Shown here one piece after another: positions 1 to 14,218 of a stretch of 58,200 bases of DNA; the first letter of the stretch is position 1; each line of letters starts with the position of its first letter. A program made the position numbers and the translations under genes. The DNA is taken from NCBI GenBank assembly GCA_025354985.1, contig JANXLU010000046.1, positions 1-58,200 on the forward strand. Reading direction: 5' to 3'. This DNA is from Chloroflexota bacterium. GTDB taxonomy: Bacteria > Chloroflexota > Anaerolineae > J036 > Brachytrichaceae. The notes below the pieces were generated by a model that made no database searches, was not told the origin of the DNA, and saw nothing but the letters and a program-made list of their open reading frames with translations.

Positions 1-2056
1 CGCGTTTCCGTACCGCACCTAGTTCCAGTTCGGCTTGCCATTCCGATAATTTCAGCAACCTACGAATGCGAGGTAGCTCAGCAAATTCTTTAGCAACGCT
101 CAAATCGGTTTCATTCTTGTCCCCATTAGCCACGCTCATAAAGATAAATTCGCCAAACTTTTTGACGAAGTTCTCGAACATCAAACTCGAATCGCTGATC
201 CGAAACTCAGTAACCGCACCCTGAGATTCTTCAAACAAGGTTTCATAGCGCGTCTGCCTCTGGGTCAGATGCAATTCTGGAGTCAGTTGCACCGCACCTA
301 ATCCATAAGGTTTGCCCATGCCTAAGCGATGTGCATGGTTACCCGTACGAGAAACCTGCAATGCCCATGCCAATGCGCCCAGCTCTTCGTCGGTCAAGTT
401 CTCAAACCAAACTTTGAAGGTAAACGATTTGCCTGCACGAACGGGTCGCATTTGCGTGTGCTGCGTGCTGTTGGTTTTAACCACATAATGCCCTTCGCTA
501 TCTCGAACCAAATTACCATTGCTATCCGCTTCAAACAAACTTTTGGATTCTTCTCCACTTGGTTGCGCTTGTAACTTATCGGGTTTCACGTTGCCCTTGG
601 CCCAATATCGTTTGTATCCCTGCATCTCAGGCTTTTTGTCATAGTGACTAAGGTTGGCTTTGCCATCAGCACTTTGCACCAAGTAATGCGCAAAGGCCGT
701 CGGCTTAGGCGATGCCAAAACTTGGGGCACCAATGCTGGCTGATTCGGGTCAATCAACCAAATGTCAGATTGACGTTCGGGCGAAAGCATCGCATCTGAG
801 AAAAAGACACGCCCGGAGTAGGCACGCTCTTTATCGCCTTGCACAAAGGCTTTTTTTGTCTTTTCATCGCTACGCACATAGCCAAACATTGCTTCAGTCA
901 TGTCACACAGCGCCGGGTCAGACAGATTTGCTGGTCGAAGGTCAATAGGTCGAATAGCTTTACCCTTGAAAAGGGCAGGTATTCGAAAATTTGGGGTATG
1001 CCCAAAGTACTGCACCGACTTGCCATTTGCCACGTAGAAAACCGGGCGACCATCCATCAGAATGCCTCGTGATTTGTCAAACAGGGGGCCTTCTTGCTCA
1101 AAATCAGTCAACGCATCTTGGTAGTCTTGGACTGCCACAGGGTTCAGCGTGAATGGTTTTGCGTCGGGGTCTTTCTCTAATACCAACACAAACATTCTGC
1201 GTTTGCTTTGGTGTGCATCCTTTGCACCGGTTGCCATATTTCCAGTACAGACCAATTCACCCTTAAATGTTTTTGACTTGAGTGATTCAGGATCATCTAC
1301 AAAAAGATAGTGCTTGCCTTGCGTGTTGCGTTCAACCACCGACCGAAGTGAAACGCTATGAACACTTGGATGATAATTTGCTGAGCGAAAACTCTTGATG
1401 CCCGGTACCTGATTGGCTAAGCCTTTTGTGTCGCGAACCCATACAAACCCTCGCGTAACCTCAGGAAAGTCGCGGTGCTTGATTTGTGCAGGATAGATTT
1501 CCCAACCCTTTTCAGTTTTATGCAAGTACCCTGCGCACACATTCTTGCCAAACCGGCCTAATGCGTTTGAATAAGTTTGACCAAGCGAATCATAGTTTCC
1601 CGCCGCCACCGCACGATAAAACACTTTGCTACCGTCACTCATTGGCCCAAACTTTCCGTAGGTAGCAATTTCGATCAGGCTGCGAACCATGCCACGTAAG
1701 CTGCTGCCAGGAATTACGGGCAAGCTATCAGGTCGCGTAGAAAAGAAGATCGCTGTATTCTTCATCAGGTTGCGAAATGGCACATCTCTCGAGTCAGCAT
1801 TTTGCTGCTCTTGTGCCAATTCATATTCAGACTTACCACTCTCTTTGCTTGTTGACAAACCGGCACGAATATAGAGCGGGCTTAGCGTCGTCAGCTTAAC
1901 CTCAAAGTAACCCGTGTGCCGTTCAAGCACGTAACTGTCGTGATCTGGTGGCGGCTCTGCGGCAATAGGCTTTTCGGGTAGAGGCACAAAGTTATACGGG
2001 GCGCTTGCTGCCTTGAAACTCATGTTGGTCGCACGAACCTGCCTTGTTAAGCTCAT
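1..2056 (-). CDS. TIGR03986-type CRISPR RAMP protein (Cas7-like), 3' end cut by window edge
   Basis: Partial gene; about 685 residues are visible and the stop lies left of base 1. The ATG at 2056 follows a strong AAGGAG ribosome site and lies 1 base after the csx19 stop. The N-terminal part has the RAMP signature: a strand reading LTTLSPLYIRAG, an insertion of about 50 residues, then VIPGSSLRGMVRSL, as in Cas7 proteins. A second RAMP-like segment near the end reads HRLGMGKPYGLGAVQL, a glycine-rich loop. The family usually sits in type III-D loci as an inserted or atypical Cas7 backbone subunit of the crRNA-guided RNA-targeting complex. The residue matching the catalytic Asp of Csm3 (about 14 before IPGSS) appears to be Thr, so this subunit is probably structural. 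It is the last visible gene of the cas operon. The family name is from recognition of the sequence, not a search. Confidence 0.85.
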   Translation of the reverse strand, partial: MSLTRQVRATNMSFKAASAPYNFVPLPEKPIAAEPPPDHDSYVLERHTGYFEVKLTTLSPLYIRAGLSTSKESGKSEYELAQEQQNADSRDVPFRNLMKNTAIFFSTRPDSLPVIPGSSLRGMVRSLIEIATYGKFGPMSDGSKVFYRAVAAGNYDSLGQTYSNALGRFGKNVCAGYLHKTEKGWEIYPAQIKHRDFPEVTRGFVWVRDTKGLANQVPGIKSFRSANYHPSVHSVSLRSVVERNTQGKHYLFVDDPESLKSKTFKGELVCTGNMATGAKDAHQSKRRMFVLVLEKDPDAKPFTLNPVAVQDYQDALTDFEQEGPLFDKSRGILMDGRPVFYVANGKSVQYFGHTPNFRIPALFKGKAIRPIDLRPANLSDPALCDMTEAMFGYVRSDEKTKKAFVQGDKERAYSGRVFFSDAMLSPERQSDIWLIDPNQPALVPQVLASPKPTAFAHYLVQSADGKANLSHYDKKPEMQGYKRYWAKGNVKPDKLQAQPSGEESKSLFEADSNGNLVRDSEGHYVVKTNSTQHTQMRPVRAGKSFTFKVWFENLTDEELGALAWALQVSRTGNHAHRLGMGKPYGLGAVQLTPELHLTQRQTRYETLFEESQGAVTEFRISDSSLMFENFVKKFGEFIFMSVANGDKNETDLSVAKEFAELPRIRRLLKLSEWQAELELGAVRKR

Positions 2057-2057
2057 G

Positions 2058-2693
2058 TTAGTTATCTCCTTTGAATGTCACACTCACCACCCGCGCCGCC
2101 GCCACCCGCGCCAACGTTTCGCCCTTTGCCAGATATTGGCGCACCACCAGATGCGCGCGGTGTTGGCGGTCTGCTTTTTGCACAGCAATGGGCAACACAT
2201 GCACCAGTTCTGCGCTGCCTTCGCGCATGCGCGTAAATCCAGTCGCGCCCACCGGCGCGCCTTCGCTGCCCAGCAGCAACTGGTCTTCATCAAAACATTG
2301 CACAAACTGTGCCTCGCCAGCGGCCTCGTCACAAATAACCCGTGCATGCCATGTCGCGTCTGGTATACCTTGTTCACGCCACAACAGCACCTCAGCGTTA
2401 CCGCCAAACAAACGCGCTTGCCACAAGGTGACTGGATTTAGAGCCGCGCTGAAGAATACTGGGCTCTTTTCACTGGCTTCGGCTTCATATCCGGTCATGA
2501 GTGTGGCATTACCTGGGGTTGTTTCAAATCTGCCCCAAGTCACGCCATCTTCAGCATGTGCCAGCAAGGTAGTGCAGCCGAATCTTAGGGCTTGTTCCTC
2601 TAGCCACGCCTTCAACTGTTTGGTTGTATCCAACATTGCTACCGAAATAGACTGCACATTGGTCGTACAGTTTTTTAGTGCCCTTTTGCTCAC
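2058..2693 (-). CDS. csx19: Csx19-like type III-D CRISPR protein (TIGR03984 type)
   Basis: A 211-residue protein starting at GTG, which overlaps the stop of the preceding cas7 gene (GTGA). A GGAGG site lies 7 bases upstream. A shorter start at Met20 is possible. Visible features fit the small Csx19 (TIGR03984) family: WGRFETTPG, an alternating strand region around LFGGNAEVLLWREQ, a middle TWHARVICDE segment, and a C-terminal HLVVRQYLA helix before an Arg/Ala-rich strand. Csx19 is a type III-D marker and a subunit of the effector complex; its exact role is poorly defined. Position between the double Cas7 and the TIGR03986 protein is the usual III-D arrangement. No catalytic motif is evident. 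Identification rests on the short motifs plus context. Confidence 0.75.
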   Translation of the reverse strand: MSKRALKNCTTNVQSISVAMLDTTKQLKAWLEEQALRFGCTTLLAHAEDGVTWGRFETTPGNATLMTGYEAEASEKSPVFFSAALNPVTLWQARLFGGNAEVLLWREQGIPDATWHARVICDEAAGEAQFVQCFDEDQLLLGSEGAPVGATGFTRMREGSAELVHVLPIAVQKADRQHRAHLVVRQYLAKGETLARVAAARVVSVTFKGDN

Positions 2694-4213
2694 GCTGTTA
2701 CCTCCATCAATTGCACCTTCAGCGCCTTCACAAAATTATTCAATTGAGTTGCACGTGCTGCGTTTATGGGTTGTAGCGCATCACCCTGAGCCAAAATTGT
2801 GCAATCAACGCCCTTCGCCTTCCAGAGCAATGTTGCTTCCTTGCCCTTGAGCCGCCCACGCCCCACGCTGATCTCGCCGCCCAGCGGCAAATCGCCTGTC
2901 CACAAATCTTTTAGCAACAGCAACAACAAACCGACTTCGCCTTCTGTCGGGTTAATCAGTTTTACGAACACAGATACCTCGGTTTGGTCGCCACCAAAGA
3001 CGGGCTGCTCGGTAAACAATGCCGTGTCCAGCGCACCACCGGTAAAGCGATCAATCGCCACGCGCGATTGCACCAGATCAAACCGGCCACCGCCAGCAAC
3101 ACCCGGTTGCAGATGTACCTTATGTTCCTCCACCCAAACGCGGCTGGCAGTGGGCTGGGGTCGGTATGCGCCTGCGCTGACGGCCCGGTGCATGTCGCGC
3201 CCGAACAGACCATCTATAAGTTCGTCTGCCCGCCCGCGTTCACTCGCCAGCGTATTCACAATCTTGCTCGCGCGGGCGCGCAAGGCTCCGGCCAGGCTGG
3301 TACCCGGCAAAATGGGTATGCCGTTTGAGGCCACCTGCACCATGTCTGGCTCAACATCATCTCGGCCACCGCCAGAACGCACCAGCAGCGAGCCATCCAA
3401 CCAGAATTTGGCTTTCAGCTCAAACAGATTACGCTTCTCGTCCGGCAAAATGGCGGCCTTGTTCAGCGCTTCGCCCAGATCTCCAACAAGTTTGCTGCTC
3501 AGTGTTGCTGCGCCGTGCGCCAGCCAAGCCACCAACCCTTCGGGTGTCTTTAGGTCAAATTGCTTCACCCGCCACGCCGACACTGCCACCCGCCCAAACC
3601 CGCGAGATTTGCGCGCGCCGAGAGTGATGCCGCCATTGACGAAGCCTTGTAACGCTGTCGCCAATGCGCTCAACAAAGCCGCCGCGTCGTCACCTTCACG
3701 AACCAGCAACTCAAAACGCAGGGGGAAAGTTGTGCCCGCCTGCCAAGCCTCCAGGTTAAACAGCGCGTTGTCTTGCGCCGTGCGGCTGCGCGCATTCAGC
3801 TTTACTCCATTTCGGGTTTCAATTTTGCCGAGCGTGCCATACGCATCCTCCACAATCAGTGGGCTTTGCAGCCCTTCGTCATCGCCTTTGGCCCCGCCAA
3901 ACAAACTTACCGCCGCACTTTCGCGCTCTTTCGTTTGCTTGTCTACCTTTACGCGGTAGCCCAACTGGTGGCTGCGCAAATAAGCGCGTAACGCGCCAGC
4001 GATGCTGGCTCCTGTCAGCAACGGCGTCTTGTCGTCATCGGGTGCTTTCAACAAGGGCATATCGGTCATGTCGGCAGCATCGCCATTTCCAAAATGGGCG
4101 GGGGTTTGCAACTCCAAATCCCCTTCAACCACCCAGCGTGCCAAAATTTTGCGCGAACGCGCCCCAGACCAGAATGGCTCGCCAGATGTCTTGTCTTCAC
4201 GTTGTTCAACCAT
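2690..4213 (-). CDS. Tandem Cas7 (Csm3-like) fusion, type III-D backbone
   Basis: A 507-residue protein built from two RAMP/Cas7 units. The chosen ATG at 4213 overlaps the csx10 stop (ATGA) and has AAGGAG 6 bases upstream; a GTG 21 bases earlier is less likely. Unit 1 (about 25-225) has LLTGASIAGALR and a glycine-rich loop GARKSRGFGRV. Unit 2 (about 260-500) has ILPGTSLAGALRAR and GGEISVGRGRLKG. In each unit an Asp (about D51 and D290) aligns with the catalytic Asp33 of streptococcal Csm3, counted back from the PGxSLxG motif, so both units should be able to cut bound target RNA. The arrangement resembles the Cas7-2x subunit of type III-Dv complexes. It is translationally coupled to csx10 upstream and csx19 downstream. 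Confidence 0.88.
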   Translation of the reverse strand: MVEQREDKTSGEPFWSGARSRKILARWVVEGDLELQTPAHFGNGDAADMTDMPLLKAPDDDKTPLLTGASIAGALRAYLRSHQLGYRVKVDKQTKERESAAVSLFGGAKGDDEGLQSPLIVEDAYGTLGKIETRNGVKLNARSRTAQDNALFNLEAWQAGTTFPLRFELLVREGDDAAALLSALATALQGFVNGGITLGARKSRGFGRVAVSAWRVKQFDLKTPEGLVAWLAHGAATLSSKLVGDLGEALNKAAILPDEKRNLFELKAKFWLDGSLLVRSGGGRDDVEPDMVQVASNGIPILPGTSLAGALRARASKIVNTLASERGRADELIDGLFGRDMHRAVSAGAYRPQPTASRVWVEEHKVHLQPGVAGGGRFDLVQSRVAIDRFTGGALDTALFTEQPVFGGDQTEVSVFVKLINPTEGEVGLLLLLLKDLWTGDLPLGGEISVGRGRLKGKEATLLWKAKGVDCTILAQGDALQPINAARATQLNNFVKALKVQLMEVTA

Positions 4214-5925
4214 CACGCGCTCTCCTTCTGGCACTCTTTGGCTGCGCGAGATAACGCCGCCTTTAAATAGCGCAGCGTAAATTCCACCCGCAACGCCGAA
4301 GTCGGCTTCACCAACAACGCACCAATTTGGCTATTGAATCCATCGCTTAGCCCCAACCGCCCGTACCAGCCGTCCTCACCCGCCGCTGCAACCAGATCCA
4401 TTACCCATTCAGACAACTGCTTGCCATCCAAATGAGCCTGCGCAAATTGCTTGCCCGCTTTTTTATTCTTAATGTCCGTCATGTAGTTGCTGATTCGATC
4501 TATTTCAAACGCAGGCTGCATCAGCGCATCGCGGGTGATGGCGCGCAGGCGTTGCAACTGCGAAGGTTTTAATCGTCCAGGCTTGAAGCCAGCATCAAAC
4601 AATTGGTTCACAGCCGCCCCAATCTGTTCATTCAATTGCATGCGCACCAAACGGTCGCGCATGCGCTCGGCCATCGCCAGCGCCGCAGCATCTTCTATTT
4701 TGGGCAAGCCGTTGAGCTCAACTTTCACCTTTGGTTCAGGAATGACCGTGAGCGCTTCACCCAACCAGTCGTTTACCGCCACCCGGCCAAACCCCTCAGC
4801 TCGACGCTCGCCCAGGCCAGCCCGTTCTAACAGTTGGATGTGTTCGGCAGCGGGTGCATCCGATGGCACATTTGGCACATCACACACCAGCACCGTGCCC
4901 ATGCTCAGCACTTGAATCTGTGGCACAGGCAAGCCCCAGGTTTGGTTAAACCCACCCAATATACTGACATTGGCAAAGGCATCGGCGATCTTTAGGTCAT
5001 TGCAATTCAACGCTTTGCGTAGTGCCACTTGCATAGCTTCCAGGGCGGGTGTGCTCACACCCAATGCGCTATCTCGCAAAACCACATCGCTCAACAGCGT
5101 GATTAATAGCTTTTTGGATTGCGTGCTTTGCGGCAAGGTTTTTTGTGCAGATGCTTTGCTGCCCTTCACAATGGCGGTAGCGACTTCATCCCAGGCTTGC
5201 GCATCATGGATGTCACTCTCGGCAGAGAAGCTGAACCTCACCCGCCCATACCCCGCGCTGCGCGAACCACCCAGCGCATACTCGCCATTTAGCAGGCTGG
5301 CGATTTTTTCTGCTGCGCTGTCATCATCACAGAGCACTACCCCTGCAAAAGCCTGCCCTTTTGCCAACGCATCATAGCGATACACCGCGCCATCTTGTGG
5401 CATGGCGCGGCCATGTGGGCGGCTGCGTTGCGTGTGAATCTTGATGCTGCGTTGAGACGTGTGCTGGCTTATCTGCTGCCCCGCAGCGCACACATAGAAG
5501 TTGCCGCGCACCCCTTTCCACTGCGCGTTGGGGTCATTGCGCGTCTTCGCATCCATCAAGGCCAGATCGTGGGTGATCTTTGGCTTGCCTTCTTGGCGGC
5601 GCGCTTCTTTGGTTTGGTGCCAACTCAGCGGCACGGGCAAGCTGCGCCGCAGCTCTTTTGTCTCTGAGTGCGTTACAACCAAATAGGCATTTAGAAAGCG
5701 CGTGCTGCCGTCAAAAAACAAAGGTTTGATGTCTTTGGCGCTCGCCCCAGCCAACAAGCCATTCTGATCAATTTTGTGTTTCTGGCAGTAACGGTGCAGC
5801 AGCGCCCCGCGCAACACACTGCCCGGCAAAAAATTGAATGCCACCGCGCTGTTTGGGTCGCCGTCCAACGCCGACACCAGCACCGGTTGCAACAATTCGA
5901 TGCGATACGTGAGAACCTTGCTCAT
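4213..5925 (-). CDS. csx10: Csx10-type RAMP protein (Cas5-like) with long helical C-terminal extension
   Basis: A 570-residue RAMP protein starting at an ATG that overlaps the stop of the upstream cas7 (ATGA). It begins with a RAMP strand (TYRIELLQPVLVSALDG), then FLPGSVLRGALLHRY, the PGSxLRG loop of Cas5/Cas7 proteins. Two glycine-rich loops are visible, GGSRSAGYGRVRF (about 219-231) and GERRAEGFGRVAV (about 372-384), so two ferredoxin-like folds are present. Residues about 411-570 have no RAMP motif and read as amphipathic helices (for example AERMRDRLVRMQ and the final LRYLKAALSRAAKEC). Csx10 is the Cas5-like subunit of type III-D complexes and caps the crRNA 5' end. The helical tail could stand in for the small subunit Cas11, which has no separate gene here; that is inference. 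Confidence 0.85.
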   Translation of the reverse strand: MSKVLTYRIELLQPVLVSALDGDPNSAVAFNFLPGSVLRGALLHRYCQKHKIDQNGLLAGASAKDIKPLFFDGSTRFLNAYLVVTHSETKELRRSLPVPLSWHQTKEARRQEGKPKITHDLALMDAKTRNDPNAQWKGVRGNFYVCAAGQQISQHTSQRSIKIHTQRSRPHGRAMPQDGAVYRYDALAKGQAFAGVVLCDDDSAAEKIASLLNGEYALGGSRSAGYGRVRFSFSAESDIHDAQAWDEVATAIVKGSKASAQKTLPQSTQSKKLLITLLSDVVLRDSALGVSTPALEAMQVALRKALNCNDLKIADAFANVSILGGFNQTWGLPVPQIQVLSMGTVLVCDVPNVPSDAPAAEHIQLLERAGLGERRAEGFGRVAVNDWLGEALTVIPEPKVKVELNGLPKIEDAAALAMAERMRDRLVRMQLNEQIGAAVNQLFDAGFKPGRLKPSQLQRLRAITRDALMQPAFEIDRISNYMTDIKNKKAGKQFAQAHLDGKQLSEWVMDLVAAAGEDGWYGRLGLSDGFNSQIGALLVKPTSALRVEFTLRYLKAALSRAAKECQKESA

Positions 5926-6605
5926 GCCGTCACCCCCATCAACCTCTTGAATAATCCGAAAAAGTCGTCTGTCATATCTTTAGGCATGCCGTTTTCCAGT
6001 CGCATTAAGCGCACCCGCAAACGCCCGCGCCCTCGGTTGCGCCCCGTCCCGCCGCGCCGCAGGGCCAACAAACACGCAGCCAACAGTGCCTGTTGTGGGT
6101 CGGTCAAATCGCCACTGCTCACTCCCAATGGCGCGGTGAACACCGTGCCACGCAGCACCACCCGCATAGTGCGCAGCGAGCCTTCTTCCGGCGCACCGGT
6201 CTCTTCATTCACCGCTGTCTGGCGGCGTAGCGCCGTCAGCGAATCCAGCACGGAGGCCGGGCTAAGCACATTGGCGCGAATGCTTGCAGTTACTGCCTCG
6301 CTCAACTCAGCAGGTAACTCGGCATCGCCAATGTTTAACAGGGATTGCTTGGACTTGCTGCCGGGGTTGCCAAACAACACCGCCGCCGCAGGTGCAAAGA
6401 CCGCACAGTGGCTGTCATTCAACCCATACAGCACATTGGCGCATTCCTCGGTCAACAAGCCTTTGAGCACGCGGCCACGAATAAAGGGCAGACCACTGGC
6501 CTCGTCATAGTCCACTTCTTCGTCTATTAATCCGGCCACGCCATCGCCTCGCCCAAATGTGGCATCGCTGAGTAACGTAATTTGTAGTTGAAAGCTACTG
6601 GGCAT
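5922..6605 (-). CDS. Cas7 (Csm3-like) RAMP subunit, type III-D
   Basis: A 227-residue Cas7 protein. The start at 6605 is chosen because GGAGG lies 10 bases upstream and the RAMP fold begins at once (SSFQLQITLLSDATFGRGDG); 21 more codons upstream are open but overlap cas10 further. The segment GLIDEEVDYD, then GLPFIRGRVLKGLL, aligns with the Csm3 stretch that holds Asp33, placing the likely catalytic Asp at D28. A glycine-rich RNA-contact loop GGTGRNRGRGRLRVRL follows near 185-200. The protein should be one of the crRNA-binding backbone subunits that cut target RNA at regular intervals. Its start overlaps the cas10 end by 11 bases and its stop overlaps the csx10 start. Confidence 0.88.
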   Translation of the reverse strand: MPSSFQLQITLLSDATFGRGDGVAGLIDEEVDYDEASGLPFIRGRVLKGLLTEECANVLYGLNDSHCAVFAPAAAVLFGNPGSKSKQSLLNIGDAELPAELSEAVTASIRANVLSPASVLDSLTALRRQTAVNEETGAPEEGSLRTMRVVLRGTVFTAPLGVSSGDLTDPQQALLAACLLALRRGGTGRNRGRGRLRVRLMRLENGMPKDMTDDFFGLFKRLMGVTA

Positions 6606-8439
6606 AAGTTTTGGCCTCCTGTGCTTGTGTTTGCGGTTTGGGTTGGGAAGATGGATTCGATGCAGCATGAATCGGGATATACAAATCCATTAGCTCTAGC
6701 GCATCAAAATAACCGCTGTAATGTTTCTCGCAGTCGGGATCATGCCGAGCGGTCGTCCACCCGCTTTCTCGCCAAGACAATGAATTGGGCAAGCCACCCA
6801 CATCGGGCAACTGTCGGCTAGATGCCTTGTCGCGCAGATACTTCTCGCAGAAAGTTTTGATTGCGTCTGGGCCACCGCGCAGCGCATCTCGCAGCGCCTT
6901 CGATTTGTTGCGCTGATTTATCCAATCTGACTGAAACGCGGTCAGGCCTTTTTCAACCACCGACCACGTTCGCCGCGCATCCGGCACGTTGTCGCTCAGC
7001 GCCACAGGCCGTAGCGTCAAAGACCCAGCAGGCACGGTGTATTCTCGGTCTCGAATTTCACCAATGCCCCCAAATAAGCCACTCAAGGCATAGTGCCAAT
7101 CCAGCGTGCTGCCTTCCCAATTTTCTGATTTGTCGCGAAAGTGAGTGCGCAGTTTCTTGGCATCGTCGCACAAATCCTCGGCCAACCCGTAGGCACGCGC
7201 AAATGGATAGTGCGTTTTTACGATGGCGATTCCCGCCGCAGCCGTGGCACCCTTTACAACAAACTGTTTTGTCAGCGCATCCCAATCCAGCAGCCCAATC
7301 TGCGGGACCTTGGCGCACGCTTCAAATTGATTGAGATATTCGATGGCAAGTGAAACACCCAGTCGTCCATCGCACACAAAGGTGACGTCGTCTCCCCCAA
7401 ACACAATGGGGCGAAAGGGTAAAAAGTAGTTTTGAGAAACATTGGGATACAAGGCTCGATCTACTTGTTTGAGCGTAACTGTCGCCAATTTATCGCCCTT
7501 TGAATTGAGATGGACGAGTTTTTCATAGCGGTCACTTTCACCTGGCAGGTCTGCCTGCACCACTCGCTCGACCAGCGTATGCAGCGTAGCTTGCAATGCT
7601 TTGCCTGCGCAATCGTTCATGCGCTTCGAGAATTCGCGCATTTTATCCACATACGCGCGGTTCTTGTCGGGTGTATCAAACTTTTCTGCCAACTGCAACA
7701 CCCGTTTACCAATGCCATTGCCATCGGCATGTATGACGGCAATAAAACTGTTGTCACCTGCCTCGCGCCCCAGGTTATCCAGATCGTAGGGAAAGGCGTA
7801 GTACCTACTCGCGTCACCCATTGCATCTTCAAGCTCCTGGCGCAAGGCCTTGTTTGCATCATTAAGCGCATCGTGCTTGGCCAACACATCAGCCGAGACA
7901 GGGTATTGGTTTGCAGGGTCTGCGTCCGAACCGGCGTAGGCAACAGCGGGCAACCCGGTAGATTGACACGGCAGCGTTACGCCCAGGCTTAGCGGCGGCG
8001 TGGAATGTTGACGATTGCGCTTGAGTAGACTAAGTTTTTCAAACGTGCTTTGCTGCACATGGGTCAACATATCCAGCTTCCAATCGAACTCATCTGAAAG
8101 CGCCAGCAAGAGAGAGAGACCCGGAGCTTCGCATAACACCTGCTGAGACAGCGTCCGCATGTAGGCTTTGGCGGTGTCCTCATCTTTAAAAAGGACGACG
8201 ACGTTGCCGCCCCCACTGTAGATCACTTCAGCAGCCGCACCCTTTTCGATAGGCAGTTGCTTCGCCAGATTATTTTCATCTGGACCAACCTGAAGTTTTG
8301 CGGCTGCTTTTACCGCGTTCAGCGCCCACGCCCCAGTAGCTTGCTTAACCAAGTGTGATGCGCCGATATTTTCGCGCAAGCGGTTGCTCCCAAAAATGTA
8401 GGTCTGAATGCCGCTGGTGTCGGCTGCGACTAAATACAT
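6595..8439 (-). CDS. cas10: Cas10 of type III-D, GGDD palm present, HD nuclease domain absent
   Basis: A 614-residue large subunit. The start at 8439 is preceded by AGGAAGGAG; the 21 open codons upstream lack a ribosome site. The protein opens directly with LVAADTSGIQTYIF, the first palm domain, so there is no N-terminal HD nuclease. Palm 1 has SGGGNVVVLF (about 75-84); the CQSTGLPA segment follows near 158-165. Palm 2 opens with IHADGNGIGK (about 236-245) and carries FGGDDVTF with GGDD at 348-351, the catalytic motif for making cyclic oligoadenylate from ATP. The expected role is target-RNA-triggered second-messenger synthesis without ssDNA cleavage. First gene of the cas operon, about 160 bases downstream of the CARF-HTH gene. 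Confidence 0.93.
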   Translation of the reverse strand: MYLVAADTSGIQTYIFGSNRLRENIGASHLVKQATGAWALNAVKAAAKLQVGPDENNLAKQLPIEKGAAAEVIYSGGGNVVVLFKDEDTAKAYMRTLSQQVLCEAPGLSLLLALSDEFDWKLDMLTHVQQSTFEKLSLLKRNRQHSTPPLSLGVTLPCQSTGLPAVAYAGSDADPANQYPVSADVLAKHDALNDANKALRQELEDAMGDASRYYAFPYDLDNLGREAGDNSFIAVIHADGNGIGKRVLQLAEKFDTPDKNRAYVDKMREFSKRMNDCAGKALQATLHTLVERVVQADLPGESDRYEKLVHLNSKGDKLATVTLKQVDRALYPNVSQNYFLPFRPIVFGGDDVTFVCDGRLGVSLAIEYLNQFEACAKVPQIGLLDWDALTKQFVVKGATAAAGIAIVKTHYPFARAYGLAEDLCDDAKKLRTHFRDKSENWEGSTLDWHYALSGLFGGIGEIRDREYTVPAGSLTLRPVALSDNVPDARRTWSVVEKGLTAFQSDWINQRNKSKALRDALRGGPDAIKTFCEKYLRDKASSRQLPDVGGLPNSLSWRESGWTTARHDPDCEKHYSGYFDALELMDLYIPIHAASNPSSQPKPQTQAQEAKTYAQ

Positions 8440-8602
8440 ATGTTGCTCCTTCCTATTTGCAGATTGTGCAGGTCTGCTGTTAATAATACCGTCGGATTTC
8501 AAGCCCGACTACAGACAGTCCTCCCCAAAAACAGTCTCGAACCTCTGATGCGCCAAGTTGTATTTGCGCGCAAGGTATGTCCCAAATAAATCGGTGGTGT
8601 CG
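8440..8602 (-). promoter_or_regulatory. Leader/promoter region of the cas10 operon
   Basis: Gene-free stretch between the CARF-HTH stop and cas10. Read on the minus strand it has a TATTAT hexamer (8488 to 8483) about 45 bases before the cas10 ATG and a good ribosome site. No convincing -35 box is spaced correctly. An imperfect inverted repeat GTCGG...CCGAC (8491-8509) and GTGGTG-TCGT-CACCAC (8594-8609, over the CARF gene stop) are candidate operator or hairpin sites. It may hold a promoter for the cas operon that the adjacent CARF-HTH protein controls; this is inference. Confidence 0.35.
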
Positions 8603-9565
8603 TCACCACAACGATGAGGTGTCCACCAATCCCCCAAACTTCTCGCGCAAAAAGGGATGTGTCACTCTATAGTCGTTTGGCAACTTCCAAACCACACGGC
8701 AAATCTCAAACACTTTGGTCTTGTATTGATTCACTGTTTTATGGCTCAAGCTCATCTGAGCGGCAACGGCGGCCACCGTTTGCCCACCCGCAGCGAACAA
8801 CCGCACCACCTCACGCTCACGCGGGGTCAACTGCTGCAAGACCTCTTTACAGCGCGCCATCTCTTCAGCATCTATCCATTGGCGGCCCGCCCCCACGATA
8901 TCCTGGGGTGTGGCCTGCGCCGCGCTTTGCAACCCCGGCGAGATCATGCCCATCGGCAACAACGGCACGTCAATCAGCTTTATGCCAGATTCGGCAGGCA
9001 CATGCAGGATGGCCCCCTCGCCCGCCTCTGCACGCACGTTCGGTGGGGTAAACAAGTGATAACAGCGATCCCGCCGCCGAAACAACAACGAGGCAACCGA
9101 AATCGCCTGCAAGCTAATCAAGCGGGGCCCACCGGTGACGCACAACAAGACGGTGTATCCGGCATCTTGCAAGGCGCGAATCAGATGATGCGTCGTCATC
9201 CAAATAGCATCCGACGCAGCGGGATGATCAATGTCGCCAATGGCGTGGCCCGCCATCGCACTGTGCAGCGCGATCAACGAGTCCGGTGGATTGTCGCGGA
9301 TCACAACCGAATCAAAATGAATTTGTTGGGTCGCCTGACGATAGCCAGCGTGCTTTCCAAAATCGGTGCGGAGCTGATTCAGCGCACGGCTCACCCGAAG
9401 ATCGGTGGGGGCCAGGTGCAACGCAAACGCACGCGTGATGGGCAAACCTTGATTGAGCAAACAATCCAGCGGGAAGGTGAAATTTTGCGCCTTGCCACCG
9501 AGCGTAGCAATAAGCGCACATTGCGCGGCGTTAGGCAGGCTATGAGACAGGTTATATGATGACAC
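8603..9565 (-). CDS. CARF-type (NE0113/Csx14-like family) sensor fused to LuxR-type HTH
   Basis: A 320-residue protein starting at GTG. The N-terminal half matches the CRISPR NE0113 family, a CARF-like fold: ALIATLGGKAQNFTFPLDCLL (18-37 region) and, in the second half of the fold, VTGGPRLISLQAISVASLL (143-161) followed by RRDRCYHLF. The latter corresponds to the family's AGGRKTM...GR..D...HVLV segment, with Arg-Lys changed to Pro-Arg. Residues 246-290 form a textbook GerE/LuxR helix-turn-helix: LTPREREVVRLFAAG, then VAAVAAQMSLSHKTVNQYKT. The expected role is a transcription factor whose DNA binding responds to a cyclic oligoadenylate made by the neighbouring Cas10. It lies directly upstream of cas10 on the same strand and diverges from the P-loop/Csx3-like gene. 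No nuclease domain is seen. Confidence 0.82.
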   Translation of the reverse strand: MSSYNLSHSLPNAAQCALIATLGGKAQNFTFPLDCLLNQGLPITRAFALHLAPTDLRVSRALNQLRTDFGKHAGYRQATQQIHFDSVVIRDNPPDSLIALHSAMAGHAIGDIDHPAASDAIWMTTHHLIRALQDAGYTVLLCVTGGPRLISLQAISVASLLFRRRDRCYHLFTPPNVRAEAGEGAILHVPAESGIKLIDVPLLPMGMISPGLQSAAQATPQDIVGAGRQWIDAEEMARCKEVLQQLTPREREVVRLFAAGGQTVAAVAAQMSLSHKTVNQYKTKVFEICRVVWKLPNDYRVTHPFLREKFGGLVDTSSLW

Positions 9566-9603
9566 TACTACGAACTACTCCCGTGCATATGCATCGGAGA
9601 ACC

Positions 9604-10737
9604 ATGAACCTACTTCCTGCGATCTTGATTGGCGGGCCACCCAACTCTGGAAAGTCCATCTTATTTTACGGCCTCACGCGCGCACTAGAGCGGCTGGTTT
9701 TGCCATCGTTCTATGCCTTGCGTGCTGCACCGGATGGCGAAGGCCATTGGACGCACGAGATCACCCCGGATGCGCGTTACGGGTTGCGCTTCAAAGGGCA
9801 ATGGAACCAACGTTGGGTTGATGTGACCTGCCGCGATCTGGCCGCACGCACCATGCCTACGCTTGTGGATGTAGGTGGCTTGCCCACCGCAGAACAAGAG
9901 GTGATCTTTGATCAGTGCAACTACGCCATTTTGCTCACCCGTGTTGGAGCCAACGCCGAGCGCGAGCATTGGCGGCAGTTGATGATGAAACATGGTCTGC
10001 CGATCTTGGCCGATGTGCAATCGGATTTAGCGGGCGAAAATCATTACGTCATTAATCCAGATGGATCGGTGGGTGGAACGCTGGCTGGGTTGCAGCGTGT
10101 TTCAGGCCGTGTTGCAAATGGCCCGGCCTTCGATGCAATCGTGGAGCGTGTTCACAGTGTTTTTGATTTACCTCAGGATGATATTGATGGCCTTAATATT
10201 GCCGCCGCGCCCAAGGACTCATTCGTTGTGGATTACGCCGCATTAACGCGCAGTTGGTATGGCGCAGGTGTGCACTGGCCCGAATCCGATGTGAGCCGAC
10301 TGGTGGAAGCAACGCCAGCAAATAGGTCGTTAGCCGTTTATGGGGCGAAGCCTTCGTGGCTCTGCACGGCATTGGGGGCAAGACGCACGGTGGGTTATGT
10401 GTTCGATGTGCGGCAGGGCTGGGTTAAACCGCCTGCTATCTCGGTGGGTTTACCCAATGATGAACGCTGGAAGACACACCCACAACTTGAATTGAGCATT
10501 GAATGGCTGGGCCATCAACGTGCGCGCTTACGTATGAAGAAGCGCCCCGAATTCTATTACCTAGATTACGATTCTTTTCATGGCAGCGTCTTTCCGCATC
10601 TGCCTGCTGAAACCCTTCTCTCGTTGTACGGCCCAATGCCCCTGTGGTTGTTTGCCAGCTTAGGGCAAGCCTACCGCCATCTGCGAGGCGTGATTGGCGA
10701 GCAGGGCGGCGAGACATCAAATACCCAAAAGCCGTGA
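9604..10737 (+). CDS. P-loop NTPase with two Csx3-like segments
   Basis: A 377-residue protein. The ATG at 9604 follows GGAGAACC; 16 open codons upstream overlap the divergent CARF-HTH gene and are probably untranslated. Residues 10-18 form a Walker A motif (GGPPNSGKS), with a Walker B-like MPTLVDVGG at about 85-92. The C-terminal half holds two segments resembling Csx3 (Crn3), the cA4 ring nuclease: VYGAKPSWLCTALG...VFDVRQGWV (245-274) and LYGPMPLWLFASLGQAYRHL (341-360). In the archaeal Csx3 as I remember it, the first segment has His residues after the GxxPxWL motif; here they are Cys and Gly, while the Asp of FDxRxG is kept. Csx3-AAA fusions are known near type III systems. It may bind or clear cyclic oligoadenylate. 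Ring-nuclease activity is uncertain. Confidence 0.72.
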   Translation: MNLLPAILIGGPPNSGKSILFYGLTRALERLVLPSFYALRAAPDGEGHWTHEITPDARYGLRFKGQWNQRWVDVTCRDLAARTMPTLVDVGGLPTAEQEVIFDQCNYAILLTRVGANAEREHWRQLMMKHGLPILADVQSDLAGENHYVINPDGSVGGTLAGLQRVSGRVANGPAFDAIVERVHSVFDLPQDDIDGLNIAAAPKDSFVVDYAALTRSWYGAGVHWPESDVSRLVEATPANRSLAVYGAKPSWLCTALGARRTVGYVFDVRQGWVKPPAISVGLPNDERWKTHPQLELSIEWLGHQRARLRMKKRPEFYYLDYDSFHGSVFPHLPAETLLSLYGPMPLWLFASLGQAYRHLRGVIGEQGGETSNTQKP

Positions 10738-11118
10738 CTTCATATTTTGAAGAAGGTTCTTCATTCCGACTGCTTGAGATTCGCCAAGACCACACTCACC
10801 TTCACGCCACCTCCCCGGCCCTCACCCCAGCCCTCTCCCAAAGGAGAGGGGGCCAGCACCCACACCAGCCCTCTCCACGGCCCCCACACCAGCCCTCACA
10901 CCGGCCCTCTCCCAACGGAGAGGGGGCCGACCTCGCACGCGATGCGATTGGAAGTGGGTTTGAAGCGATTGCCCGCAACATAAAGGCGGCGTGTGATCGG
11001 CAGGGCAATGTCCAGGCAGGCGGTGATGGACCTTTGAGTTCACGCAGGGTGAGAACGGCGGGAGGGGCCCTCACCCCAGCCCTCTCCCAACGGAGAGGGA
11101 GCTGGGCGGGTGCAGCCC
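10738..11118. repeat. Intergenic block of REP-like palindromes
   Basis: A 380-base gap without a credible gene. It holds three copies of a REP-like element: 10817-10854, 10891-10928 and about 11065-11102. Each reads GGCCCTCACCCCAG, then the palindrome CCCTCTCCCAA(A/C)GGAGAGGG. A degenerate fourth piece lies near 10865-10884. Each copy can fold as a short GC-rich hairpin. The same family recurs at 46077-46159 and 57900-58150. The block separates the CRISPR locus from the metabolic region and might act as a transcription end for both flanking genes, which converge on it. Confidence 0.85.
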
Positions 11119-12096
11119 TCACATGCTCAGCATAAACTGAAAGATATCATCGCGCATGCCGGGTAGGCCGGGTTCATGACCGAAATCCGGATACGTGAGC
11201 ATGCGCTTGGTGGACGTGACCTTGTTATAGGCGGCGTATTGGGTGGACGGCGGGCACACCGTGTCCATGAGCGCGATCGTCCACAGCACCTCCGCCCGGA
11301 TGCGCGGGGCCAGATGCTGCACATCGATGTAACCCAAGTTCATAAATACGGCGTCCTCGTGCGCGTGGCGCGGATCGTGTCGGCGGAAGAAATCCTTCAG
11401 TTCCTCATAGGCATCCTTGGCCTGATCCATCTGCCATACCCGCAGATAGTCGCTGAGGAAGGGGAAGACGGGCGCGGCCCGACGGATGCGTGGTTCCAGC
11501 GCCGCGCAGGCAACCGTCAGCCCGCCGCCCTGGCTCATGCCGGTTACGCCGACGCGCGCCGGGTCCACATCGGGCATGGCCAGCACAATGCCGGCGAGTT
11601 GCGCCGCATCCAGATAGATCTGCCGGAACAGCAGCTTTTGCGGTGCACCGTGAATCGCATCATTCAGCCCGCGGATGATGTGGCCGCGCACGGTGTTGCC
11701 GTGGGTGCCGCCAACGTCTTGTGACAGACCCGCCTGACCGCGACAATCCAGCGCGACCACGGTGAAGCCCTGCGCCACATAGCCGAGCTTTTCATACCAA
11801 TCACCCGAGTCAGCATGGTAGCCGTGCAGCATGACGAGCGCCGGGCCGGGCGCGGGGCGATGGGCCGGTCTGAGCAGCTTGGCATGAATTCGTGCGCCAC
11901 CCACACCGGTGAAATACAGGTGCCTGCAATCGACACCGGGCGCCTTGAAATCCGCCGGCGAAAGCTCCACCCGGGCATCCAGCGCGCGCATCTCGGCCAG
12001 ACCGGCGTCCCAATACGCATCAAAATCGGCCGGGCGCGGATTGATGCCCTGATAGGTTTGCAGTTTGTCAAGCGGGAAATCAAAAGTTAATGGCAT
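11119..12096 (-). CDS. Acetyl-xylan-esterase / cephalosporin-C-deacetylase family hydrolase
   Basis: A 325-residue alpha/beta hydrolase of the AXE1 family (usual length about 320). Visible: PALVMLHGYHADSGDW (oxyanion-side strand), ALDCRGQAGLS, the nucleophile elbow VGVTGMSQGGG, the acid IALMDTVCPPS and the catalytic His in YPDFGHEP. Family members remove acetyl groups from xylan oligomers or other small esters in the cytoplasm. No signal peptide is seen. A TAAGAT hexamer on the minus strand ends 6 bases before the ATG, suggesting a leaderless transcript. It diverges from the MFS gene, and the sugar-acid genes nearby fit a plant-polysaccharide diet. The exact substrate cannot be read from sequence. 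Confidence 0.9.
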   Translation of the reverse strand: MPLTFDFPLDKLQTYQGINPRPADFDAYWDAGLAEMRALDARVELSPADFKAPGVDCRHLYFTGVGGARIHAKLLRPAHRPAPGPALVMLHGYHADSGDWYEKLGYVAQGFTVVALDCRGQAGLSQDVGGTHGNTVRGHIIRGLNDAIHGAPQKLLFRQIYLDAAQLAGIVLAMPDVDPARVGVTGMSQGGGLTVACAALEPRIRRAAPVFPFLSDYLRVWQMDQAKDAYEELKDFFRRHDPRHAHEDAVFMNLGYIDVQHLAPRIRAEVLWTIALMDTVCPPSTQYAAYNKVTSTKRMLTYPDFGHEPGLPGMRDDIFQFMLSM

Positions 12097-12185
12097 GGGG
12101 TTATCTTACCCAATTTCAGCGCCAGCGGGTCTCGCCACAACCGCTTGATAATGGGAGGGAGCGGTTAAACGTTCGCTCTTTGACG

Positions 12186-13418
12186 ATGCTACGCACATTT
12201 GGCCGAAACACCTGGTTGATCATGACTGTTTTTGCAGTGAGTGGTTTCGGATATTTCGGCATTCAGGCGGTGCTGTTTAACCTGTATTTGCTGCGCCTGG
12301 GGTATGACGCGCAGTTTATCGGTACATTGATCGGGGGTGGTCAATTGGTGTGGGCGGCGATGGCGCTGCCCGCCGGGGCGCTGGGGCGACGTCTAGGCAG
12401 CCGCCAGGCCCTGATGTTGTGGCACAGTCTGCACGGATTGGGTTTTTCAATCATCCTGTGCGCCGAGTTCCTTCCGCCGGCCTGGTGGACCGCGTGCATC
12501 GCACTTGGGTGGATGGTGTATTGGACGGGTGGCGCGTTTGGAGGCGCCAACTCCACGCCCTACCTCGTGGCCGAGGCCCCCCGGGAGGCGCTTAATCACG
12601 TTTTTTCAACCCAGGTGGCGCTGATGGCGATCATGGGTTTTGTGGGCAGCTTAGTGGCGGGCGCGTTGCCGGCCATGCTGACCACGCTCACCGGAGCCGG
12701 CGCGGCGGCGGCCGAGCCGTATCGACTGGCGCTGATCCTAGTGCCGATTTGCCACTTCACCTGCTCGCTCATCCTCAGCCGATTGTCGCGTTCCTCCCGG
12801 CCCCAGGAGCTGGTATCGGACCCGGCCGAATCGCGGCCGCTGCGCTTGCTCGTATTCTGGGGCGTGCTGATGTTTCTGCTCACCTCCAGCGAAGGCTCGG
12901 TGCGCGCGTTTTTCAATGTATATCTCGACAAGCAACTGCTAATGTCGACCGCAGACATCGGCCGGGTGTTTGGCCTGGCACAGTTCATGTCGATCCTGAG
13001 CGCATTTAGCGCGCCGATGTTGCTGCGCCGGCTGGGCGCGTCGCGGGTAATTTTCATCACCACATTGGGCAGCTCCCTCGTGCTGTTGGTGCTGGCCACG
13101 CTGCAAAACGTGACCGCGGCCAGCACGGCATACGTGGGCGTGCTGCTGCTCGCGGCCGTGTCGGGTGCCGCCCGCAGCATCCTCAGCCAACAGCTGGTGC
13201 AGGTGCGGTGGCGCACGATCATCTCGGCTGTGCAAACGGTGGGTCAGGGCCTGGGTTGGGCCAGCGCGGCCGCGATTGGAGGCGCGCTGGTGGTGGCCTT
13301 TGGATTCTCCACCTACTTCTCCATCAGCGCCGGGCTTTCGGCGCTGGCGGCGTGTCTGCTGGCGGTGTTTATCCGCCGCCGCGGCGCGGCGCCCGTGACC
13401 CGGCCGCGGGCAATTTGA
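12186..13418 (+). CDS. MFS transporter
   Basis: A 410-residue membrane protein with about 12 hydrophobic segments, beginning MLRTFGRNTWLIMTVFAVSGFGYFGIQAV. The loop after helix 2 (AGALGRRLGSRQALML) matches the conserved MFS GxxxDRxGRR loop in relaxed form. The ATG at 12186 is preferred because the first helix begins right after it; the frame is open 32 codons further but that part looks noncoding. It ends in an Arg-rich tail. Substrate unknown; sugar or drug export are both possible. It lies upstream of the RidA-like and dehydrogenase genes on the same strand. Confidence 0.85.
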   Translation: MLRTFGRNTWLIMTVFAVSGFGYFGIQAVLFNLYLLRLGYDAQFIGTLIGGGQLVWAAMALPAGALGRRLGSRQALMLWHSLHGLGFSIILCAEFLPPAWWTACIALGWMVYWTGGAFGGANSTPYLVAEAPREALNHVFSTQVALMAIMGFVGSLVAGALPAMLTTLTGAGAAAAEPYRLALILVPICHFTCSLILSRLSRSSRPQELVSDPAESRPLRLLVFWGVLMFLLTSSEGSVRAFFNVYLDKQLLMSTADIGRVFGLAQFMSILSAFSAPMLLRRLGASRVIFITTLGSSLVLLVLATLQNVTAASTAYVGVLLLAAVSGAARSILSQQLVQVRWRTIISAVQTVGQGLGWASAAAIGGALVVAFGFSTYFSISAGLSALAACLLAVFIRRRGAAPVTRPRAI

Positions 13419-13459
13419 AGGTATAACAAAGTAGCTGAACAATGATTGGAGAACTCAAT

Positions 13460-14218
13460 ATGACACCAAACTTTATCGAACGCAATGAAGGCAACTACCG
13501 ATATGTGGCGGGGCATGGCACCTACTGCAACGACGTGGTGCCAGGTCCGGGTCACGCCGTGGCTCATGCGGTGTTTGCAACCGCGCAGCCGCTGGCACGC
13601 GGGCTGGAATTCATCCAGAGTTATCTCGCGGGGCTGGGCCGCCCGATGGCCGCGCTGTGTGGTGCGGAACTGCGCATTCGCGAGGCGCTCTCGTTTGCCG
13701 GCTTTGCCGCACTAAACGCCACATATATCGCGCTGCTTGACACATACAACCTGCGCCAAAACGGTCTGGGCACGATGACCCGCACAAACGTCGCGCCCGA
13801 GGTGGCGGCCGCGAAACCGACCGAGCCGGGCATCTTTGGCTTTAGCTATATCGTGCCGGGCGCGCCAACCGGGCGCAGGACCTTTGTCTCCAGCGGCAGC
13901 GGCGAGCTGGCAGGCGAGGGCCGCGAAGGGATCGTGCGGCTGGGTGATAGTTCCGTGGATGGGATGCGTGAGAAGACGCGCTGGGTGATGCGGGCCATCA
14001 GTTCGCGGCTGCCCGGGTTGGGCGTGTCGATTGAGGACGTGACACACGTGAACCTGTATACGGTGCGACCGCTCGACGCGATTCTCGAACACGAAGTGCT
14101 GGATGTGTTGGGTGCGCGCGCCGGGATGGGCGTGCACTGGCACTATGCACGGCCGCCGATCGTGGAGCTTGAGTTCGAAGCAGATCTCAAGGGTGTGCTG
14201 CACGAGGCCTATTTGTGA
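13460..14218 (+). CDS. RidA-like family protein
   Basis: A 252-residue protein. The ATG at 13460 has GGAG 8 bases upstream and sits about 25 bases after a likely transcription start (TATAAC at 13422-13427); an in-frame ATG at 13442 is less likely. The C-terminal half has the pattern of RidA/YjgF proteins: GVSIEDVTHVNLYTVRPLDAIL and a final Glu-rich strand. The N-terminal half (ALCGAELRIREALSF...) resembles longer RidA-like proteins that may bind imines or other reactive intermediates. Its stop overlaps the GTG start of the next dehydrogenase, so the two are probably made together. The specific reaction is unknown. Confidence 0.6.
   Translation: MTPNFIERNEGNYRYVAGHGTYCNDVVPGPGHAVAHAVFATAQPLARGLEFIQSYLAGLGRPMAALCGAELRIREALSFAGFAALNATYIALLDTYNLRQNGLGTMTRTNVAPEVAAAKPTEPGIFGFSYIVPGAPTGRRTFVSSGSGELAGEGREGIVRLGDSSVDGMREKTRWVMRAISSRLPGLGVSIEDVTHVNLYTVRPLDAILEHEVLDVLGARAGMGVHWHYARPPIVELEFEADLKGVLHEAYL

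Follow-up and report, generated by a model that had tools for sequence, protein, structure and literature searches.

Csa3, from archaea, is the only closely studied CARF regulator that we found in the literature, and work on type III signalling has dealt mostly with nucleases and other killing effectors. Csa3a, a CARF-HTH regulator without the putative catalytic lysine, binds cA4 and leaves it uncleaved; its binding to its own promoter DNA is non-specific and cA4-independent (PMC8699464). Sso1393 is a ring nuclease that joins CARF to a winged HTH (PMC8699464). In Sso2081 (Crn1), motif I (Gly-Thr-Ser) and motif II (Gly-Arg-Lys) act in cA4 binding and cleavage, and a K106 mutant of Sis0455 binds cA4 about 2000-fold worse (PMC10018336). 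In the Csx3 of A. fulgidus, roles have been assigned to residues H57, H60, D69, and R71, with D69/R71 as a half-site for cA4 (PMC7371418).

A 2014 survey described Csa3 and the NE0113 proteins as having no effector domains and predicted a role for them in regulating transcription (Makarova, PMC4012209), and a 2025 classification includes HTH and transcriptional regulators among the sensor-linked outputs (PMC12669027). The protein described here belongs to the same CARF family as the NE0113 proteins (PF09623) of the 2014 survey, the main-text treatment of which does not name the LuxR-type HTH (PMC4012209).

Results

The window, i.e., the whole stretch of DNA analyzed (58,200 nucleotides), encodes a CARF-HTH protein with the following features:

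8603–9565, minus strand: CARF-HTH gene (NE0113 CARF and LuxR-type HTH), 320 aa, GTG at 9565, stop at 8603
8957–9520, minus strand: CARF domain, residues about 16–203, Crn1/Sso2081-like fold in the AlphaFold2 model
9491–9499, minus strand: motif I position, Gly-Gly-Lys, residues 23–25 (Gly-Thr-Ser in Sso2081)
9122–9130, minus strand: motif II position, Gly-Pro-Arg, residues 146–148 (Gly-Arg-Lys in Sso2081)
8705–8842, minus strand: LuxR/GerE-type helix-turn-helix, residues 242–287
8606–8704, minus strand: conserved C-terminal tail 3' of the HTH, with invariant Trp and Phe and a helix at 303–313

Homologs in other Thermoflexales align over the full length at ∼47% identity, and the open reading frame is therefore a real gene. 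An earlier note, made from the letters alone, had placed the frame at 8603–9565, which holds (on the minus strand), and had read it as a fusion of an NE0113 CARF-like domain with a LuxR-type HTH. Both domains score above their Pfam cut-offs: Cas_NE0113 (PF09623) at 66.9 bits (cut-off 23; residues 29–219) and GerE (PF00196) at 35.2 bits (cut-off 23.5; residues 244–286). The residue ranges proposed earlier (18–37, 143–161, and 246–290) fall within these measured domains or fit them closely. Sigma70_r4 profiles likewise exceed their cut-offs, the nearest solved domains by sequence are those of NarL and EL222, and a profile search with Csa3_N gave no match. The HTH is thus LuxR-type, as had been argued, and differs from the winged HTH of Csa3.

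The AlphaFold2 model (mean pLDDT 87.5) places a CARF/Rossmann fold in the N-terminal half, the feature on which the earlier note had staked its reading. Residues 16–202 match Sso2081 Crn1 best (Z 17.8, rmsd 2.1 over 153 residues), followed by Cad1 (Z about 17) and Csa3 (Z about 13), so that Crn1 (Sso2081, Sis0455) provides the closest solved CARF fold. Csa3 resembles the CARF-HTH protein in having a CARF sensor, a C-terminal DNA-binding domain and no putative catalytic lysine; it differs in its winged HTH, its archaeal host, its link to type I-A systems and the weaker fold match.

Whether this fusion had been named before, which the earlier note had left as a question, can be answered in the affirmative. 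Residues 15–315 match positions 4–286 (of 288) of the PADLOC CARF3 profile PDLC01855 (E 1.6e-74), and the C-terminal 98 residues alone, comprising the HTH region, match positions 201–286 (E 1e-22), so the profile takes in the HTH. The architecture is identical to that of the CARF3 clade (PDLC01855, with PDLC01851), of which this protein is a divergent member, its E-value of 1.6e-74 comparing with values of up to 1e-152 for its relatives. The combination of CARF with a LuxR-type HTH is therefore not new, and belongs to a known, uncharacterized family. What makes the present variant distinct is the conjunction of clade-wide motif loss, a reciprocal and near-obligate pairing, and a partner that has correspondingly lost its metal residues; we claim no priority for the pairing.

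A survey of relatives for the HTH, as had been suggested, found NE0113 in 25/25 aligned relatives and GerE in 24/25. From the genome collection, 80 CARF-HTH loci were retained, nearly all from Chloroflexota, in which the architecture is widespread; PF09623 itself is present in 60 of 400 sampled genomes. Spread beyond Chloroflexota rests on Rhodothermus: a Rhodothermus marinus plasmid encodes a relative with NE0113 and HTH immediately upstream of csm1, labeled in RefSeq as a CRISPR-associated ring nuclease. Two further candidates for wider spread, labeled Terriglobia (L063) and Gammaproteobacteria (L106), lie on short metagenome contigs and were left out because their genes resemble those of Chloroflexota; both carry Chloroflexota-like CARF-HTH and AAA-Csx3 genes, and the contigs are probably mis-binned. 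Separately, tandem-CARF proteins of 416–597 aa, with two NE0113 matches per frame, occur at several sites (G061:C68:4055-5260, G220:C261:1481-3112, G011:C113, G293:C30, and G352:C1:5223771-5225291), some of them near a CARF-HTH gene.

Sso2081 is without an HTH and carries the motifs GTS and GRK, whereas the CARF-HTH protein has an HTH and carries GGK and GPR, so that neither Crn1 motif is kept. In the alignment, ATLGTSPGG of Sso2081 stands over ATLGGKAQN, and TGGRKSMS over TGGPRLIS; this alignment is weak (E 0.016) and is backed by the fold match. The replacement of Arg-Lys by Pro-Arg, already remarked upon in the earlier note, is thus seen in TGGPRLI aligned with TGGRKSM. A motif census was taken from the profile columns of 104 distinct relatives, 96 with the HTH and eight without it. 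The GTS of motif I occurs in none of the 96 HTH-bearing proteins, and the motif II lysine is absent from 92 of them; the Rhodothermus protein is among the four that have it. Among the eight relatives without this HTH, six retain the lysine. On a tree computed with the motif columns excluded, the lysine position shows a single K/R change (branch support 76), while Pro-Arg as found here is present in 24 proteins and accounts for four changes. The earlier suspicion that ligand handling may differ was a sensible one, as judged from motifs altered throughout the clade. By analogy with the Sis0455 mutant, the CARF-HTH protein, having lost its counterparts of R105 and K106, could bind cA4 more weakly. 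Because the cleavage motifs are lost clade-wide, and given the parallel with Csa3a, the HTH-bearing clade is best read as sensors.

Upstream, the gene faces a divergent partner across a short gap:

9566–9603: divergent gap between likely start codons, 38 bp, with the palindrome TGCATATGCA inside
9604–10737, plus strand: AAA-Csx3 (C3a67), P-loop NTPase and tandem Csx3-like repeats, profile match from the ATG at 9604

The partner matches the PADLOC profile C3a67 (E 1.8e-71). Among the 80 loci, 74 pairs were scored as divergent by script, and two more (L065 and L123) were added using likely starts; as two loci begin at a contig edge, the pair is divergent in 76 of 78 testable loci. The exceptions are L134, in which the genes are co-directional, and L121, where no partner gene lies within 10 kb upstream. 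Because a CARF-based search could bias this count, the pairing was rechecked in 400 genomes with the partner profile alone: a divergent NE0113 neighbor was present in 49 of 55 places, the other six being contig-edge genes or weak fragments. Conversely, NE0113 genes stand without an AAA-Csx3 partner in 32/81 places. All six partnerless NE0113 genes with a readable motif II (L041, L042, L045, L046, L048, and L050) have the lysine; L121, outside those six, has neither partner nor lysine.

The N-terminal part of AAA-Csx3 has a full Walker A in 34/34 sequences. By sequence, this NTPase gives only weak AAA matches, and in the model (pLDDT 89.1) its best fits are MinD, ParA, and FleN (Z up to 13.9), so that "AAA" may be a loose label for it. 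In the window (9604–10170), the domain models as MinD/ParA/FleN-like in preference to AAA+, and its Walker A is not of the deviant ParA form. The C-terminal part, which can be aligned with the Csx3 of A. fulgidus (E 2e-12), appears to comprise two repeats. In the first, the ligand-face equivalents of D69 and R71 are kept in 30/34 and 31/34 sequences, respectively; in the second, H57, H60, and D69 are nearly or wholly lost, and the window protein has Q, R, Q, and G at H57, H60, D69, and R71. The metal-face histidines are kept in neither half. AAA-Csx3 thus differs from Csx3/Crn3 in its N-terminal P-loop NTPase, its two repeats and its missing metal-face histidines; judged by these residues, it is unlikely to be a cleaving enzyme and is a possible binder.

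The TGCATATGCA palindrome in the 38-bp gap may be due to chance. Across 52 divergent gaps, the best inverted repeats averaged 5.65 pairs, compared with 5.77 (sd 0.15) in shuffles, and no shared operator was found; in a promoter scan, matches were no commoner than in shuffles. At four loci (L090, L092, L110, and L120), the divergent gap contains a TATAAT-like box not far upstream of the CARF-HTH start, and in some loci this box might be close enough for leaderless transcripts. Beyond the partner gene, a 49-nt G+C-rich repeat (core CCCTCACCCCAGCCCTCTCCCAACGGAGAGGG) is present between genes at 10806–11103 in three imperfect copies.

Downstream of the CARF-HTH gene lies a cas operon:

6595–8502, minus strand: type III-D cas10, GGDD intact (FGGDDV), likely start ATG 8439
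5922–6668, minus strand: type III-D cas7
4213–5925, minus strand: type III-D csx10/cas5
2690–4234, minus strand: cas7-type gene with two RAMP stretches
2058–2693, minus strand: csx19, cas11-like
2–2056, minus strand: additional operon gene, truncated at the contig end, with similar genes at the same place in relatives

The joint presence of Cas10d, Csx10/Cas5, Cas7, and Csx19 identifies the operon as type III-D. No CRISPR array was seen in window positions 1–14000, and the contig edge cuts the cas locus short. Relatives often have a CARF4-PDDEXK nuclease gene between the CARF-HTH gene and cas10 (L062, L070, L072, L077, L080, L082, L089, and L112); in the window, only 100–164 bp separate these two genes. 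In other relatives, Cmr1 of a III-B system adjoins the CARF-HTH gene, and at L065, L068, L074, and L118 the divergent pair sits in type III-B-like loci with the Cmr1 gene after the CARF-HTH gene. As the pair is found in both III-B-like and III-D loci, it moves between III-B and III-D operons.

A single Cas10 and a single NE0113 protein are encoded in the source genome. No CARF4-PDDEXK was found in it, either with PDLC01883 (for which there was no positive control) or with the nearest relative's protein, and no Csx1/Csm6 was found (controls positive). The absence of these effectors is indecisive, since the assembly has a completeness of 95.8% and the contig ends within the operon. Elsewhere in this genome (L145; G000 contig C6, 34–9248) is a type I CRISPR locus, where cas1 was identified by profile match and cas4-, cas6-, cas3-, cas5-, cas7-, and cas8-like genes by eye; three copies of a 37-nt repeat lie at the contig end, and this repeat is absent from the window. 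With a type I system on another contig, cross-regulation of the kind seen with Csa3 is conceivable.

Discussion

On balance, we lean toward the CARF-HTH protein being a cyclic-oligoadenylate-sensing transcription factor of the type III-D system that works with AAA-Csx3. The loss of the motif II lysine, the divergent pairing, and the loss of the partner's metal face together lead us to read it as probably a non-cleaving sensor that serves as a transcription factor alongside an NTPase. Upon target recognition, Cas10 would make cyclic oligoadenylate, probably cA4, which a CARF dimer would bind in a Crn1-like pocket. Because this pocket is without the ring-cleavage residues, the protein would read the signal and leave it undestroyed. 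Ligand binding would then reposition the paired LuxR-type HTHs, whose target may be the divergent promoter region that separates the CARF-HTH and AAA-Csx3 genes; through it they would control (whether up or down) both the downstream cas operon and the partner. AAA-Csx3, with its NTPase and a half-intact cA4-binding Csx3 repeat, would probably be a signal-dependent co-regulator. Weighing against this reading are the failure to find an operator in the 52 divergent gaps, the possibly weakened cA4 binding, and the non-specific, cA4-independent promoter binding of Csa3a.

We hold it as decidedly doubtful that the two proteins go further and form, as two disarmed ring nucleases, a self-contained head-to-head module, in which one sensor of the Crn1 type, joined to a LuxR HTH, and another of the Crn3/Csx3 type, joined to a MinD/ParA-like NTPase, would read the same cyclic oligoadenylate, act jointly on DNA, and possibly constitute the genome's main type III output.

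Among the alternatives, it is rather unlikely that the protein is a regulator whose ligand is not cA4 (cA3, cA6, SAM-AMP, or none) and which keeps expression of the locus steady, perhaps as an autorepressor. The altered pocket motifs would then reflect the other ligand, and autoregulators are typically placed head-to-head in this way; however, AAA-Csx3 retains the Csx3-type D69/R71 half-site known for cA4, and the loci of relatives hold Can2/Card1-like CARF4 nucleases, a cA4-activated type.

It is improbable that the RefSeq name is right and that the protein is, like Sso1393, an HTH-bearing ring nuclease that degrades cA4 and so ends the alarm. The best fold match is indeed to Crn1/Sso2081, Sso1393 sets a precedent with its winged HTH (PMC8699464), and the Rhodothermus marinus relative bears this very name, but that relative sits in the GRK-keeping group, and the two motifs important in Sso2081 read GGK and GPR here and are altered clade-wide. 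Very improbable is an effector role, in which a cA4-loaded DNA-binding protein and a MinD/ParA-like NTPase would act on phage or host DNA and not on a promoter: the near-obligate pairing, the MinD/ParA/FleN-like model, the lack of a nuclease effector between the CARF-HTH gene and cas10 in the window, and the failure to find either searched effector type in the source genome speak for it, yet FleN, which has the NTPase fold too, acts together with a transcription regulator (FleQ-FleN), the missing effectors may reflect an incomplete assembly, a locus at the contig edge and a PDLC01883 search without a positive control, and relatives hold both the pair and a nuclease effector.

If the CARF-HTH protein is a sensing transcription factor, this bacterial clade, in which a LuxR-type HTH goes together with disabled cleavage motifs and a near-fixed partner, would offer a clean, testable case of alarm-controlled transcription. 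The findings also suggest that ring-nuclease folds have become pure sensors twice within one gene pair, and they carry a warning: the family-derived name, CRISPR-associated ring nuclease, may be wrong for the HTH-bearing clade.
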